A stretch of DNA of 64,000 nt from Alkalisalibacterium limincola. GTDB lineage: Bacteria > Pseudomonadota > Gammaproteobacteria > Xanthomonadales > Xanthomonadaceae. Of this stretch, positions 43,480-59,561 are shown one piece after another (within the stretch, counting starts at the first letter, position 1; the number at the start of each line of letters is the position of its first letter). A program made the translations under genes and the position numbers. The notes below the pieces were generated by a model. That model saw only the letters and a list, made by a program, of their open reading frames with translations, ran no database searches and was not told the origin of the DNA. Location: the NCBI RefSeq assembly GCF_008017755.1, contig NZ_VRTS01000001.1, forward strand, positions 372,001 to 436,000, written 5' to 3'.

Positions 43480-44223
43480 TCAGGACATGTACATGCCGCC
43501 GTTGACGTGAAGCGTCTCGCCAGTGATGTAGGCGCCCGCGGGACCGGCCAGGAACGCGACCGCCTCGGCGATGTCCTCGGGCGAACCCAGGCGGCCCAGC
43601 GCGATCTGGCCCAGCATCGCCTCCTTCTGCGCCTCCGGAAGGTCGCGCGTCATGTCGGTCTCGATGAAGCCGGGTGCCACGACATTGACGGTGATGCCAC
43701 GGCTGCCCACCTCGCGTGCCATCGACTTGGAGAAGCCGATGATGCCTGCCTTTGCCGCGGCGTAGTTCGCCTGGCCGGCATTGCCGGTCAGGCCGATGAC
43801 CGAGGCGATGTTGATGATGCGGCCACGGCGCGCCTTCATCATGCCGCGCATGACCGCCTTGGAGGTGCGGAAGATCGAGCTGAGGTTGGTGTTGATCACC
43901 GCATCCCAGTCCTCGTCCTTCATCCGCATCAGCAGCTGGTCGCGGGTGATGCCGGCGTTGTTGACCAGGATCGAGACCGGGCCGAAGGCCTTGGCCACCT
44001 CGTCGAGCAGCGCGTCGACCGAGGCCGGATCGGCGACGTCGAGCACGCGCCCGTGCCCGCCCAGGGCCGAGAGGCGCCCCCCGATCGCAGCGGCACCGGA
44101 CTCCGAGGTGGCGGTGCCGATGACGGTGGCGCCCAACGCAGCGAGGCGGTCGGCGATGGCGGAGCCGATGCCGCGGCTGGCGCCGGTCACCAGCGCGATT
44201 TCGCCTGAAAGCGGAAGACTCAT
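43480..44223 (-). CDS. fabG: 3-oxoacyl-ACP reductase
   Basis: A 247-residue short-chain reductase. NADPH site TGASRGIG (13-20), NNAG (88-91), catalytic Ser141, Tyr154 and Lys158 (YAAAK). It reduces 3-oxoacyl-ACP. ATG 44223; 149 bases before acpP and 43 bases after fabD. Confidence 0.97.
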
Positions 44224-44266
44224 GTCGATTCCTCGTGTCCTGCCAGAAAAGGATTTGGTCGCTTGA

Positions 44267-45207
44267 TCAGGCGCGCCACGCCTCGAGCGCGGCATCGAAG
44301 TCGCCCACGCTGCCCAGCGCACGCGCCTCGAGCGACTTGTCGATGCGGCGCGCCAGGCCGGCCAGCACCTTGCCGGGGCCACACTCGCCCAGGCGCGTCA
44401 CGCCCTGGCCCGCCAGGGCCTGCACGCACCCGGTCCAGCGCACGGGCAGGAACAGCTGCCGCTGCAAGGCGTCGCGGATCGACTCGATCGATCCGTGCAC
44501 CTCGGCGTCGACGTTCTGCACCACCTCGATCTTCGGCGCATTCCACTGCAGCGACCCATGACTTCACCCAGGCGGTTGGCCGCCTCGCGCATCAGCGGAG
44601 TGTGCGAGGGCACGCTCACGGCCAGCTTGACCGTCTTTCGCACGCCCTGCGCGGCCAGCAGCTCCAGCGCCCTGTCCACCGCCGGGGCATGGCCACCAAT
44701 GACCACCTGCCCCGGGGAATTGAAGTTCGCTGGAACCACGACCTCCTCGCCCGAGGCCTGGCGGCAGATCGTCGCCACCTGCTCGTCCTCGGCTCCGATG
44801 ACCGCGGCCATCGCCCCGGTACCGGCGGGAACCGCAGCCTGCATCAGGCGACCCCGTTCGCGCACCAGCAGGGCGGCGTCGTGCAGCGAGATCGCCTCCG
44901 CCGCCACCAGCGCCGCGTACTCGCCCAGGCTGTGCCCGGCGAGGCGGCCGGGATTTTCCCCACCCGCCTTGAGCCACAAGCGCCACACCGCGATGTCGGC
45001 CGCCAGCAGCGCAGGCTGGGTGAACTCGGTCTGGTTGAGCTGGTCGTCGGGGTTTTCCTGCGCGATGAGCCACAGATCCGCGCCCGCACCCTGCGAGGCC
45101 TCCTCGAATGTCTCGCGCACCAGTGCGTCACGCTCGGCAAGATCGGCCAGCATGCCCACAGACTGGGAACCCTGGCCCGGGAATACGAATGCGAGCGTGT
45201 CGGACAT
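44267..45207 (-). CDS. fabD: malonyl-CoA:ACP transacylase, one frameshift as sequenced
   Basis: FabD charges ACP with malonate. PGQGSQ at residues 10-15, the nucleophile Ser93 in GHSLGEY, and His202 in VPSHTPLM are present. The frame breaks near 44555-44557 (CCC on the plus strand, probably CCCC); repair continues as GSLQWNAPKIEVVQNVDAEV and gives 313 residues. As fabD is normally essential, a sequencing error is the simplest explanation. ATG 45207. Confidence 0.92.
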
Positions 45208-45333
45208 CGGCGATGGCATCACTCAGGACGAAGCCCGCCATGATACGCGAGGCTGGTGCGCCTGCGTCTGTACTCGGGCGTAGGGTGGCGACATCATCCC
45301 GGGGCCCTCCAGCGAAGCGCTCCAGCGCGGCGT

Positions 45334-46077
45334 TCAGGCCCGCGGGGTGAGCGCAGTCCGAAGCGCGGCCCGAAGCGCGGCGACCGCCTTGCCCAGGCTG
45401 GCAGCGCGGCGGCCCAGGGGGCGCGTGAGCGTCTCCAGGAAACCGAGCCTCGCCACCGATCGCGCGACTTCATCGCGCGTCACCGCCGGCACGCTCGCCA
45501 TCGCGTCGGCAATGATTTTGCCCATGCGCTGCTCGTCCAACGGCAGGTACTTCGCCACGCCCGAGGTGAACACCAGCCAGTCGCGCGCCTGCGCGTGCCT
45601 GAGGTCCATGACCTCGCCGGGGTCCTCCTCGAAATCGAGGAAGCCGATTCGCCCGATCGCATCGATCGTTATGTTGCGTGGCAGCGGCTGCCCCAGGTAT
45701 TGGCCTGCCGCGTGCACGCAGGCGATCGCCTCGGCCGCGTCGGCGAACAGGCGCTCGGCCCCGGCTGCATCGACCTCGCGCAGGTGCGCGGCAAGCGTCC
45801 TGCCGATGTCGGCCAACACCAGGGTGGCCTCGCCGCTATGCAAGACTCCCGGCACGACGACATCGGCACCCGCCAGTTGCAGGATCCTGCGCTGCTCGGT
45901 TGCACGCGCATCGTCGCCGGCGTGCCTCGGCGGCGGCCGCAGGGCAGGCACGCCGAGCAGGCGCACGGCCGCATCGAGCAGCGCCAGCCTGAACCGCCGG
46001 AGCTCGTTGCCGTAGCGCTTGGCCCACGCCGGTTGGCCGTCGACATCGATACGTTCGACCGTCTGCTGTTCGACCAT
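45334..46077 (-). CDS. kinase-like protein inside fab operon
   Basis: A 247-residue protein with a protein-kinase-like/LPS-kinase-like plan: a possible beta-3 lysine in PAWAKRY (Lys20), a catalytic-loop-like stretch ending PLPRNITID (Asn135), and a DFG-like DFE at residues 148-150. The Asp expected five residues before the Asn is Gln130, so it may be inactive or use another residue. Small WaaP/Rio-like kinases are the nearest comparison; no firm function. Good GGGAGG ribosome site. Lies between fabH and fabD, 126 bases before fabD. Confidence 0.65.
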   Translation of the reverse strand: MVEQQTVERIDVDGQPAWAKRYGNELRRFRLALLDAAVRLLGVPALRPPPRHAGDDARATEQRRILQLAGADVVVPGVLHSGEATLVLADIGRTLAAHLREVDAAGAERLFADAAEAIACVHAAGQYLGQPLPRNITIDAIGRIGFLDFEEDPGEVMDLRHAQARDWLVFTSGVAKYLPLDEQRMGKIIADAMASVPAVTRDEVARSVARLGFLETLTRPLGRRAASLGKAVAALRAALRTALTPRA

Positions 46078-46116: not shown

Positions 46117-47097
46117 TCAGTAGCGTAGCAGCGCAGAGCCCCAGGTGAAGCCACCGCCGAACGCCTCGAGAAGCAGCAGCTGGCCGCGTTGCACGCGGCC
46201 CGAACGCACCGCCTCGTCCAGCGCCAGCGGAACCGATCCGGCCGAGGTGTTGCCGTGCCGGTCGACGGTCACGATGACGCGATCCATCGACAGCGCCAAC
46301 CGCTTCGCGGTGGCCTGGATGATGCGCAGGTTGGCCTGGTGCGGGATCAGCCAGTCGATGTCACCGCGCTGCAGGCCGTTGGCGTCGAGGGTCTCGTCGA
46401 CCACCGAGTCGAGCGCCTTCACCGCGTACTTGAATACGTCGTTCCCGGCCATCAGCACGCGCACGCCCGCGTTCTTCTCTTCGGGCTTGAAGCCCACCGA
46501 GACGCCGACGGGGTTGTAGAGCATTTCCTTCTTGCCGCCATCGGCGTGCAGGTGGGTCGACAGGATCCCGGTCTCGGCATCCGCCGTCAGCACCACCGCA
46601 CCGGCGCCGTCGCCGAACAGCACGCAGGTGCTGCGGTCGCTCCAGTCGAGCATGCGCGAGAGGGTCTCCGCGCCGACAACCAGAACCTTCTTCGCGGTGC
46701 CGGAGCGGATGAATTTCTCACCAACGGCCAGCGCGTAGATGAAGCCCGAGCAGGCGGCGTTTACGTCGAATGCGGCGCAGCCGTTCGCACCCAGGCGATG
46801 CTGGAGCAGGCAGGCGGTCGAGGGGAAAATGATGTCCGGGGTCGTGGTGCCGACGATGATCAGGTCGAGCTCGGAGGCATCGACGCCGGCGGCCTCGAGC
46901 GCGCGGCGCGAGGCCTGCTCGGCCAGGTCGCAGGTGGTTTCGCCGTCGGCCGCGATATGGCGCTGGCGGATGCCGGTGCGGTCGCGGATCCACTCGTCAC
47001 TGGTCTCGACGAACTGCGCCAGGTCATCGTTGGTCAGGACCTTCTCTGGAAGGTAGCTGCCGGTTCCGGCGATACGTGCGAAGACCTGTGCACTCAT
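46117..47097 (-). CDS. fabH: 3-oxoacyl-ACP synthase III
   Basis: A 326-residue KAS III that starts fatty acid synthesis by joining acetyl-CoA and malonyl-ACP. Triad Cys116 (NAACSGF), His253 (IPHQAN) and Asn283 (RHGNTSAGS). AGGAG ribosome site six bases before ATG 47097. No plsX lies between it and rpmF, unlike in E. coli and pseudomonads. Confidence 0.97.
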
Positions 47098-47216
47098 GCT
47101 TCTCTCCTGCGGCGCCGCGTGGATTCACGACGTCTGGTGGTGGCGACGCCCGCTGGCGGACCCCGGGGCCGGAACTGTCGCACGTACGCGCGCGCAGACC
47201 CAGCCCCGAAACGAAC

Positions 47217-47239
47217 GCGGCGGGCCAAGGGCCCGCCGC
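47217..47239 (-). terminator. hairpin after rpmF
   Basis: A 10-bp stem (GCGGCGGGCC with GGCCCGCCGC) and 3-base loop, followed leftward by GTTCGTTTC. Lies in the 218-base rpmF-fabH gap, which otherwise holds a second small hairpin (47291-47309) and no gene. Confidence 0.5.
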
Positions 47240-47315
47240 TGGACGCCCCGCAGTGCAGGCACTGGGGGAACGCGGGCCGTTCACCGGCACGCGCTTGCCG
47301 GGCAAGCGCCCGGGC

Positions 47316-47510
47316 TTACTCTTCGTCGACGATCTCGACCTTCGGCTCGATGACCTGGCGACCACGGTAGAAGCCGTCGGCCGTCACGTGATGGCGGATG
47401 TGGGTCTCGCCGGTCTTCGGGTCGGTCGCCAGCTGCTTGGCGGTGAGCGAATCGTGCGCGCGGCGCATGCCACGGCGGGAGGGGGAAACGCGGGATTTCT
47501 GGACTGCCAT
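47316..47510 (-). CDS. rpmF: 50S ribosomal protein L32
   Basis: A 64-residue L32, typical start [22 protein letters not shown] and basic middle. No zinc-ribbon cysteines, so the zinc-independent form. Co-transcribed with yceD (15-base gap), as in E. coli. Confidence 0.97.
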
Positions 47511-47525
47511 GGGTGTCTCTCCGGC

Positions 47526-48038
47526 TTACTGTTTGTCTTTCTTGAGCGCCGACAGCGCGGCGAACGGATTTGCTGCCGCCTTTTCATCGGCGCTCGGCGG
47601 CACGTCAAGCACCACCGCTTCGGTCCCCGGCGCCACCGGAATCACCGGTACCGCCAGAATCAATTCGTCCTCGACCAGCTGCGCCGGATGGACCATCGCA
47701 TCGGCGTCGACCAGCAGCGGCTCATACCCCTCGGGCAGGCCCGCTTCGTCGGCCTCGTTGCTGATCAGGCCCAGCCTCTGCACCGCGTCGACCAGAAACT
47801 CGAACCGCTGCAGCGTGCGCTGGCAGCGCAGCGGCAGCGAAGCCTGCACGCGGATCTCCAGGTAGCGGATTCCCAACGCGTCGGTATCGAACTCCAGCCG
47901 GTAGCGGCACTCGCCCTCGGCATCGTCGAGGAAAGGCTGCAGCCGCTCGAACGAGGCCAGCGGCAGCGAGCCCTCGAAGATCCGCCGCGAGGCGATCATG
48001 CGCTTCGCGTCGAGTACTTCGGGCAAGGTCGCGGACAT
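47526..48038 (-). CDS. yceD: YceD/DUF177 protein (rRNA accumulation)
   Basis: A 170-residue DUF177 protein. Conserved end of the family (DELILAVPVIPVAP, NPFAALSALK) is present. The plant and bacterial family affects 23S rRNA accumulation. ATG 48038 has no Shine-Dalgarno, and a consensus-like promoter ends nine bases before it, so the transcript may be nearly leaderless. Followed by rpmF. Confidence 0.9.
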   Translation of the reverse strand: MSATLPEVLDAKRMIASRRIFEGSLPLASFERLQPFLDDAEGECRYRLEFDTDALGIRYLEIRVQASLPLRCQRTLQRFEFLVDAVQRLGLISNEADEAGLPEGYEPLLVDADAMVHPAQLVEDELILAVPVIPVAPGTEAVVLDVPPSADEKAAANPFAALSALKKDKQ

Positions 48039-57990: not shown

Positions 57991-58752
57991 TCAACTCGGA
58001 AGGGGTGCCCTGGGGTCGCGGGGCGGTGGCAACACCACGCCCTCGCCGGGCTCGAGCACCCGGTGGCCGCGCTCGCGCAGCACGCGCGCCTCGTCGGCGG
58101 ACGCGTAGTGGTAGAGGGCCAGGCGGGCCAGCAGTTCGGGACTGTACTCGCGCTCCAGGTCGTCGATGCCGGAGTGCGAGGGGTTGCCGTGCAGCGCGCA
58201 GTCGTGGGCGATGAATTCCCCGGCGTCGGCATAGTACGCCAGCACCTCGGGGATCGGCCGCGTGTCACCGGTGTACACGAAGCTGCCAGGAAGACGCAGG
58301 CCCCAGGCCGTTTCCGGCTGGTGATGGCGAACCGGGAAGACCTCGAACCAGTGGCGCTCATGCCAGAAGCCGCTGCGCACCGGCACCAGCTGGAACGCGT
58401 CCCAGAAATTCGCGCCACCTTCGGCGAGGACGCCGGGGTAGTCCGCCACCCGCGCCTGCAGGTGGGGCAGCACCGTGACGGGCACGTACAGGCGGATGCG
58501 CCCGCGCCGCGACTCGTCGAAGAACGCGTCGACGAACAGCCGCTCCATCCCCGCGACGTGGTCGAGGTGGACATGGGTGATGAACACGGCGCCGGGCGGC
58601 TCGCCGTAGGCCTCCAGGTAGGCGGTCATCGCCTCCTGGCCACAATCGATCATCAGCAGCGGCGAGGACCCGCGCTCGACGACCGCGCAGGCCGAGCCCA
58701 GTTCCACCGCAGAGGCGTTGCCGACGCCGAGGAAGCGCAACTTCCAGTCCAT
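57991..58752 (-). CDS. metallo-beta-lactamase fold hydrolase
   Basis: A 253-residue MBL-fold protein related to RNase Z. Metal site THVHLDH (His60, His62, Asp64, His65) and later VYTGDTRP and [15 protein letters not shown] 58752 overlaps the kdkA stop (ATGA), so it is translated with the LPS gene. Substrate unknown; a phosphodiesterase is one possibility. Confidence 0.83.
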
Positions 58753-59510
58753 CAAGCCTCCCGTCCGATTGCAGCCAGATACCCCTCGCGCAGGCTGGCA
58801 AACCCCACCTCGACGCCCGGGGAGTCCGGTGCGAGCTTGCGCAGGGACCGTTGCAGGCGACGCAGGTTGCGTTCGCCGAAACCGCTGGAACCGTCCCGGC
58901 TGCCACGATCGAAGTCGATCAGCCAGACCCGGTCCTCGCGATCAAGCAGGATGTTGTGCGCATTGAGATCGGCGTGATCCACGCCAAGCCGGTGCATGCG
59001 GGCGATCGTCGCGCCGATGCGTGTCCACGGCGGTGGGCCTTCGCCGTCCGGCAGGCGCTGCGCCAGGCTGCGCGCCCCGGGGATGCGCTCGACGATCAGT
59101 GCCGCGGTGTAGGTCAGGCCACGCCGCTGGTACATCGCGGCCAGTGGCGGGGGAACCGGCATGCCCTGGCGTCGGAGCCAGTCCAGCAGCCGGAACTCGG
59201 CGATGCTGCGCGTGCGCGCCTCGCCCCGCCACAGGTAGCGCTCCCGGCTCACGCGCGCGGCCATTCCGCCGCGACGGTAGTGGCGAAGCACGCCATCGAT
59301 CCCATCGAGCTCGACGAACCAGGCCGCGCCGCGCCCCCCCTCGGCGACCGGACGGGCCCGTTCGCCGAGCCCGCTGGGCGAAAACAGTTCCGGCCCGGCT
59401 TGCGGCAGGCGCGCGGCGTCGAACACAATCGCTCCGACGCCACCCGCGCCCTGGACGCGGATCCTCTCCTCCGTCACCGCATCATTGGCTGGGCCTGTGG
59501 GGACTTGCAT
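58752..59510 (-). CDS. kdkA: 3-deoxy-D-manno-octulosonic acid kinase
   Basis: A 252-residue KdkA/WaaP-type kinase. Catalytic loop DHADLNAHNILLD with Asp181 and Asn186, and DFDRG at 199. Phosphorylates Kdo on lipid A precursor in the inner core, as in Haemophilus and Xanthomonas. Divergent from the heptosyltransferase-like gene with a 51-base gap. Confidence 0.92.
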   Translation of the reverse strand: MQVPTGPANDAVTEERIRVQGAGGVGAIVFDAARLPQAGPELFSPSGLGERARPVAEGGRGAAWFVELDGIDGVLRHYRRGGMAARVSRERYLWRGEARTRSIAEFRLLDWLRRQGMPVPPPLAAMYQRRGLTYTAALIVERIPGARSLAQRLPDGEGPPPWTRIGATIARMHRLGVDHADLNAHNILLDREDRVWLIDFDRGSRDGSSGFGERNLRRLQRSLRKLAPDSPGVEVGFASLREGYLAAIGREA

Positions 59511-59561
59511 CACGGCAGTCTAGCAACCCCGTCGCCCAAGTCGGCCAGACCCCGGAGCACC

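Follow-up and report, generated by a model that had tools for sequence, protein, structure and literature searches.

A kinase-fold protein family without the catalytic Asp, encoded between fabH and fabD in one clade, as candidate pseudokinases in envelope lipid supply

In this study, we describe a protein of 247 amino acids, here called K, which is encoded among the fatty-acid synthesis genes of Alkalisalibacterium limincola, is predicted to adopt a protein-kinase fold and carries Gln where a kinase would have its catalytic Asp. We tentatively read K as a nucleotide-binding pseudokinase with a regulatory or scaffolding function in envelope lipid supply, from a family that is apparently undescribed in the open-access literature searched. 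The best reading of the family is that its members are pseudokinases or, alternatively, kinases repurposed for a role connected with envelope lipid supply. None of the Pfam and NCBIfam models matched is specific to this family, which we regard as a new branch among kinase folds, so far uncurated, and not as a new type of system. It is not yet settled how Gram-negative bacteria split the flow of fatty acids between phospholipid and lipid A. K is a concrete candidate here: it is a conserved kinase-fold protein that cannot use the textbook mechanism, it has a place in the fab operon of one clade and, in some other lineages, msbA/lpxK or lpt genes lie nearby. Moreover, the family provides a natural series on base-less kinase folds, with Gln, Arg, Ala, Gly or Phe at the Asp position and an Arg held at +4.

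K occupies positions 45334-46077 of the 64-kb window, the whole stretch of DNA analysed here, on the minus strand, and its ATG start is directly preceded by GGGAGG. It lies downstream of fabH (46117-47097, minus strand, FabH search) and upstream of fabD (44267-45222, minus strand), and the open reading frame coordinates thus bear out its original placement between these two genes. Read along the minus strand, the genes are yceD (48077-47526, YceD search), rpmF (47510-47316), fabH, K, fabD, fabG (43480-44382 as the listed open reading frame, the true start lying within it), acpP (within 43462-43091) and fabF (42984-41743); rpmF, acpP and fabF were named by eye. K is likely co-transcribed with the fab genes, because the gaps to fabH (39 bases) and fabD (about 110 bases) are short. 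An antisense open reading frame of 290 amino acids overlaps K, and long open frames are common across the window; the case for K as a real gene therefore rests on conservation and not on the length of the frame. In the assembly, fabD is split: a change of frame near 44545-44551 separates its first approximately 225 codons from the C-terminal part. This is likely an assembly or sequencing error, since fabD is normally essential. No plsX was present between rpmF and fabH (47097-47526), and a search for PlsX (PF02504) gave no match in this genome or in any of the 20 other family genomes searched, the control search having matched in 8 of 14 known genomes.

The model of K predicted by AlphaFold2 from six sequences (mean pLDDT 87.6, pTM 0.86) shows a two-lobe kinase core. 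Bud32/PRPK proteins were the top Foldseek matches (E 1e-5; PRPK 7szc_C, TM 0.60/0.66), with modest TM-scores of 0.46-0.60 by query length for the top four. In the VIA comparison PRPK reached Z 15.4 (2.9 A, 180 residues), RIO1 12.9, APH(3')-Ia 12.1 and WaaP with acyl carrier protein 12.0. The top rank of PRPK leaves the nearest family unsettled, because 692 of the 999 compared chains reach Z of at least 8, the TM-scores are modest and the model was built from six sequences. A kinase-like fold of K is nevertheless well supported by the model, in agreement with the original prediction, which had named an unrelated fold as the outcome that would speak against it and had proposed the comparison with WaaP and Rio folds; no such fold emerged. 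The model opens with a strand pair, the second strand of which carries Lys20, and the alignment with PRPK starts at PRPK residue 43. Judged from these model strands and from this start, and against what we take to be the position of PRPK's own Gly-rich loop, the beta-1 strand and the Gly-rich loop seem to be missing from K. In Pfam, K had no match at E up to 5, Kdo/WaaP, APH, RIO1 and SelO included. The last 75 residues of K comprise 13 Lys/Arg and 6 Asp/Glu; among 22 relatives the number of Lys/Arg varies from 5 to 16. A hydrophobic C-terminal stretch (Kyte-Doolittle >1.6 over 19 residues) occurs in 10 of 17 other proteins of the fab clade (L003, L009-L016, L018), where it is possibly a membrane anchor; K itself has no such stretch.

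The active site was compared across 79 distinct family sequences read from open frames. Weak partial matches of the class-wide search (L033-L038, 26-32 bits), the canonical HGDLKPEN kinase L103, and G515 and the second G523 place of the family-wide search were excluded from this set. At position 20, the putative beta-3 lysine of the codons W18-A19-K20 (46018-46026, minus strand), 77 of the 79 sequences carry Lys and the other 2 carry Arg. The alpha-C residue Glu61, His122 and Asp166 are invariant (79/79 each), as are Asp148 and Glu150 of D148-F149-E150, the DFG-like metal site (45628-45636, minus strand). The altered catalytic loop reads G129-Q130-P131-L132-P133-R134-N135 (45673-45693, minus strand). 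When it is aligned with the Kdo kinase KdkA, Gln130 falls on the catalytic Asp of H-A-D-L-N-A-H-N and Asn135 on the metal-binding Asn. The family has Gln (61), Arg (8), Ala (7), Gly (2) or Phe (1) at the catalytic position and never Asp, a count to be read with the caveat that an Asp-less search profile may under-sample Asp-bearing relatives, yet one column is not decisive for a profile score. Asn135 is Asn in 71 and Asp in 8 sequences, and the preceding Arg134, at +4 from the catalytic position, is Arg in 78 and Lys in 1. Nor does any other position of the catalytic loop have a fixed Asp across the 79 sequences. Thus the possible nucleotide lysine, Asn135, the DFE motif and the Gln in place of the catalytic Asp, all picked out beforehand, hold up on comparison, and what had been described as a degenerate catalytic loop is the state of the whole family and not a local lesion. 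On these alignments, every family member seen has lost the catalytic base while holding the other Mg-ATP-type residues.

In kinases, the Lys, the Glu, the Asn/Asp and the DFG-type Asp contact Mg-ATP. The same kinase residues have been described for WaaP (PMC6147952). Pseudokinases are defined as kinase-like proteins without the beta-3 Lys, the HRD Asp or the DFG Asp (PMC12599244), and K agrees with this definition at the level of sequence, its HRD Asp being gone and its beta-3 Lys and DFG-type Asp retained. That the ATP- and metal-type residues persist although the base is gone suggests that K binds a nucleotide and does not carry out ordinary phosphotransfer. The label may, however, be wrong about catalysis, because SelO, which has no HRD Asp either, is an active AMPylase (PMC8097203, PMC3281104). 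It is possible, if somewhat doubtful, that K is likewise an active, non-canonical enzyme in which Asp148 together with Asn135 and Arg134 would run a SelO-like AMP transfer or a slow phosphotransfer. The nucleotide- and metal-type residues and the extra Arg are kept in 77-79 of the 79 sequences (apart from the 8 with Asp at position 135), which is tighter than a pure scaffold requires; several relatives read HG-x-x-x-x-R-N, and SelO, which keeps Lys, Glu, Asn and DFG, transfers AMP (PMC3281104, PMC8097203). Against such activity stand the variation of residue 130, the seemingly missing Gly-rich loop and the failure of K to match any Pfam model.

Weak matches of the relatives to known kinase families raise the question whether K is instead an ordinary kinase of LPS or of a small molecule whose catalytic base has been misaligned. 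Among 19 relatives, Pfam matches were found to Kdo/WaaP (PF06293; 4/19, best 2.3e-6), APH (2/19, best 3.1e-5) and RIO1 (4/19, best 0.012), and among 13 broader relatives to RIO1 (5/13, best 6.5e-5) and Kdo (3/13). When ten relatives were scanned singly, L004 was barely over the APH cut-off (PF01636; 24.3 vs 23.2) and L067 over that of RIO1 (PF01163; 23.1 vs 22), and none of the other eight exceeded either one. Some lineages also have LPS genes as neighbours. This reading is nonetheless very unlikely: in a profile comparison with four KdkA proteins (hhalign, probability 94.3, E 9.8e-8), the loop length and flanks of K align cleanly, with no Asp fixed elsewhere in the loop. Moreover, when predicted kinase residues of WaaP from P. 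aeruginosa were altered, among them the HRD Asp, most of the resulting variants were unable to support growth (PMC6147952). In addition, a separate canonical Kdo kinase with HADLNAHN and DFD motifs is encoded at 58752-59513 (minus strand) of the same window, and a true KdkA separate from K is likewise present in G329, G982 and G875. The PF06293 search of this genome (E up to 0.01; gathering score 21.3 bits) returned this window's KdkA and two places below the cut-off and did not list K. K was therefore rejected as the Kdo kinase of this organism.

K is patchily distributed. It was matched by tblastn in 17 of 80 near genomes, its own included. With a profile built from 19 relatives, 50 of the 247 genomes searched in the same family gave a match (49 full-length, 1 weak partial), as did 15 of 369 genomes at the level of the class (9 full-length, 6 weak partial). 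A broader profile of 13 relatives matched 24 of 398 genomes of the phylum, among which the G866 match is a canonical kinase; an Opitutus-assigned MAG also carries K. The original proposal to survey fab clusters for the gene gave a uniform answer, as all 49 family genomes with full-length K have it in the order fabH-K-fabD on one strand. By locus, this order was found in 18/23, 29/29 and 16/16 loci of three sets, the exceptions in the first being L004, L005, L006, L022 and L023. A tree was computed from 63 distinct sequences, and all 36 members with a fab location group in one clade, which also contains a single non-fab MAG sequence (L004). The fab label needs two changes on this tree, compared with 20.6 in shuffles. 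Apparently K entered the fabH-fabD gap once, given this clustering, and was then patchily retained. It is absent from about four fifths of the family genomes and therefore dispensable for fatty-acid synthesis.

We searched for remnants of K, via fabH, in 29 of the 35 same-family genomes without a tblastn match. In 25 of these 29, fabD lies within 1.5 kb of fabH (computed gap 52-568 bases), and in the other 4 it was not found inside 1.5 kb next to fabH. No convincing K remnant was found 3' of fabH in any of the 29 by profile or tblastn, the best scores being 7.7 bits with the profile (L218) and, with tblastn, E 0.001 over 63 residues in antisense (L196). The gene is under purifying selection: dN/dS is 0.035-0.27 (Nei-Gojobori) over the 30 closest printed pairs of fab-located relatives, pairs that share sequences and are not independent. 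The missing catalytic residue and the patchy presence might suggest a decaying gene. This is hardly credible and was rejected in view of these dN/dS values and of the fixed active-site residues in 79 distinct open-frame relatives.

Outside the fab clade, gene context was taken for 26 of the 27 known loci (the omitted one, G870, shares its genus with G981 and G977), and for L004-L006 and L118 it spans about 10 kb only. Lipid A/LPS genes at the level of orthologs lie near K in 5 of the 26 loci, which represent four lineages. In L069, K adjoins msbA, with an O-antigen ligase farther out (Pfam check). In L105 and L106 it is oriented divergently to msbA, waaA, lpxK and a gene for a DUF374 acyltransferase, the last of which was checked in L105. 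In L108 it follows msbA-lpxK-ycaR, and in L112 it is one gene from kdsD-lptC-lptB. L112 and L111 are two diverged family copies within one genome (G698), and the L112 copy is the one with Lys for the otherwise invariant Arg. At the same ortholog level, no lipid A/LPS gene was seen beside K in the other 21 loci; neighbours there include alaS (L005), rimP-nusA (L073/L109/L110), folate genes (L068) and threonine synthase, these names, like rnd and ycaR, having been read by eye. Among 40 random regions, drawn from 10 contigs of the same genomes and not matched to every lineage, 2 have lipid A/LPS genes (L165 lpxC, L168 lpxL). Generic ABC ATPases were discounted in both sets (K loci L004, L005 and L117; random regions L153, L161, L163, L169, L179, L184 and L186), as was a 26% ABC exporter in the random region L185. 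The enrichment (5/26 vs 2/40) has a Fisher p of 0.10 by locus; by lineage p is 0.027 for 4 of 13 family-level lineages, a grouping of our own in which the controls were left unmerged, or 0.021 with an alternative 12 groups. We consider the proximity to LPS genes only suggestive, since the enrichment is statistically weak.

From gene location, we infer that K is tied to lipid supply. Its fab location may also be due to one chance insertion, and K could then be a hitch-hiker, a kinase-fold gene of unrelated function that was at some time inserted between fabH and fabD and is simply expressed along with them. The diverse contexts elsewhere (alaS, rimP-nusA, folate genes) and the gain and loss of K mostly without upsetting the fab order are in line with this. 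We think it unlikely in view of the lipid A/LPS neighbours in four lineages and of a fab position held in every one of the 49 family genomes that carry a full-length K. We tentatively propose that K is a pseudokinase of envelope lipid supply, from a family of small kinase-fold proteins of the Bud32/RIO/Kdo-kinase type. All members seen have lost the catalytic Asp, and probably also the first strand and the Gly-rich loop. The Lys-Glu pair is retained, as are the Asn/Asp and the Asp of DFE, which together would hold Mg-ATP, and a near-invariant Arg has been added before the Asn. On this reading, K most likely binds a nucleotide, or else another anionic ligand of similar type, does not perform ordinary phosphotransfer and acts as a switch or scaffold in envelope lipid supply, potentially in fatty-acid synthesis in the fabH-K-fabD group and in lipid A/LPS steps in some other lineages. 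As WaaP binds acyl-ACP and is stabilised by it (PMC6147952), ACP is the first candidate partner for K. It is tempting to go further and to speculate that the family are sensors of a nucleotide and of acyl-ACP or a lipid A intermediate that relay fatty-acid supply to lipid A/LPS assembly, Asp-less folds having been recruited repeatedly near MsbA/LpxK (the K family, the PA4998 type and perhaps E. coli YcbJ). We regard this extension as quite unlikely.

Among known systems, the PA4998 type, annotated as 'kinase' or 'toluene tolerance protein' and located between Pseudomonas msbA and waaL (PMC8005017), resembles K in its kinase annotation, its place next to msbA and a weak profile match (probability 86). 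Its copies beside msbA in two genomes (L137, L140; G689/G693), called Pseudomonas-like on account of their waa kinase cluster, read YFRSLHLGN, with Ser for Asp. The type differs from K in the other loop residues and has no Arg before the Asn, and is no clear family member. In E. coli K-12, YcbJ (L119 7253-8146) is an Asp-less kinase-like protein with HGN instead of HGD, encoded behind msbA-lpxK-ycaQ-ycaR-kdsB. It was rejected as a member of the K family, as it scored -1.2 and -0.6 bits with two profiles.

Bud32/PRPK, the KEOPS kinase/ATPase, shares with K a small kinase fold, the best structural match and a weak match to the NCBIfam model arch_bud32 (TIGR03724; 21.7 bits). However, K lacks the catalytic Asp and stays far below the family cut-off of 125 bits. 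The Kdo/WaaP LPS kinases (PF06293: KdkA, WaaP, InaA) are similar in fold, in the KdkA profile and in some LPS neighbours, whereas in the K family the Asp is replaced in all 79 sequences, K has no Pfam match and a real KdkA is also present. SelO/YdiU is far larger than K, has no sequence match to it and presumably carries an Asp at +4, where K has Arg. Like K, it has lost the HRD Asp and kept Lys-Glu-Asn-DFG (PMC3281104, PMC8097203), HRD being replaced mostly by HGV (PMC3281104). Finally, the bacterial Ser/Thr pseudokinases ActPs1-3, GLW, CP1, DYD and DLHK have, like K, a kinase fold with altered catalytic motifs, and no fab- or lipid A-linked family is named among those in the accessible text of PMC12599244. 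The beta-3 Lys is gone as well from ActPs2 and GLW, whereas the HRD Asp is retained in DLHK (PMC12599244); by these motif descriptions, K is set apart from them as a protein that keeps the Lys and the DFG-type Asp without the HRD Asp.
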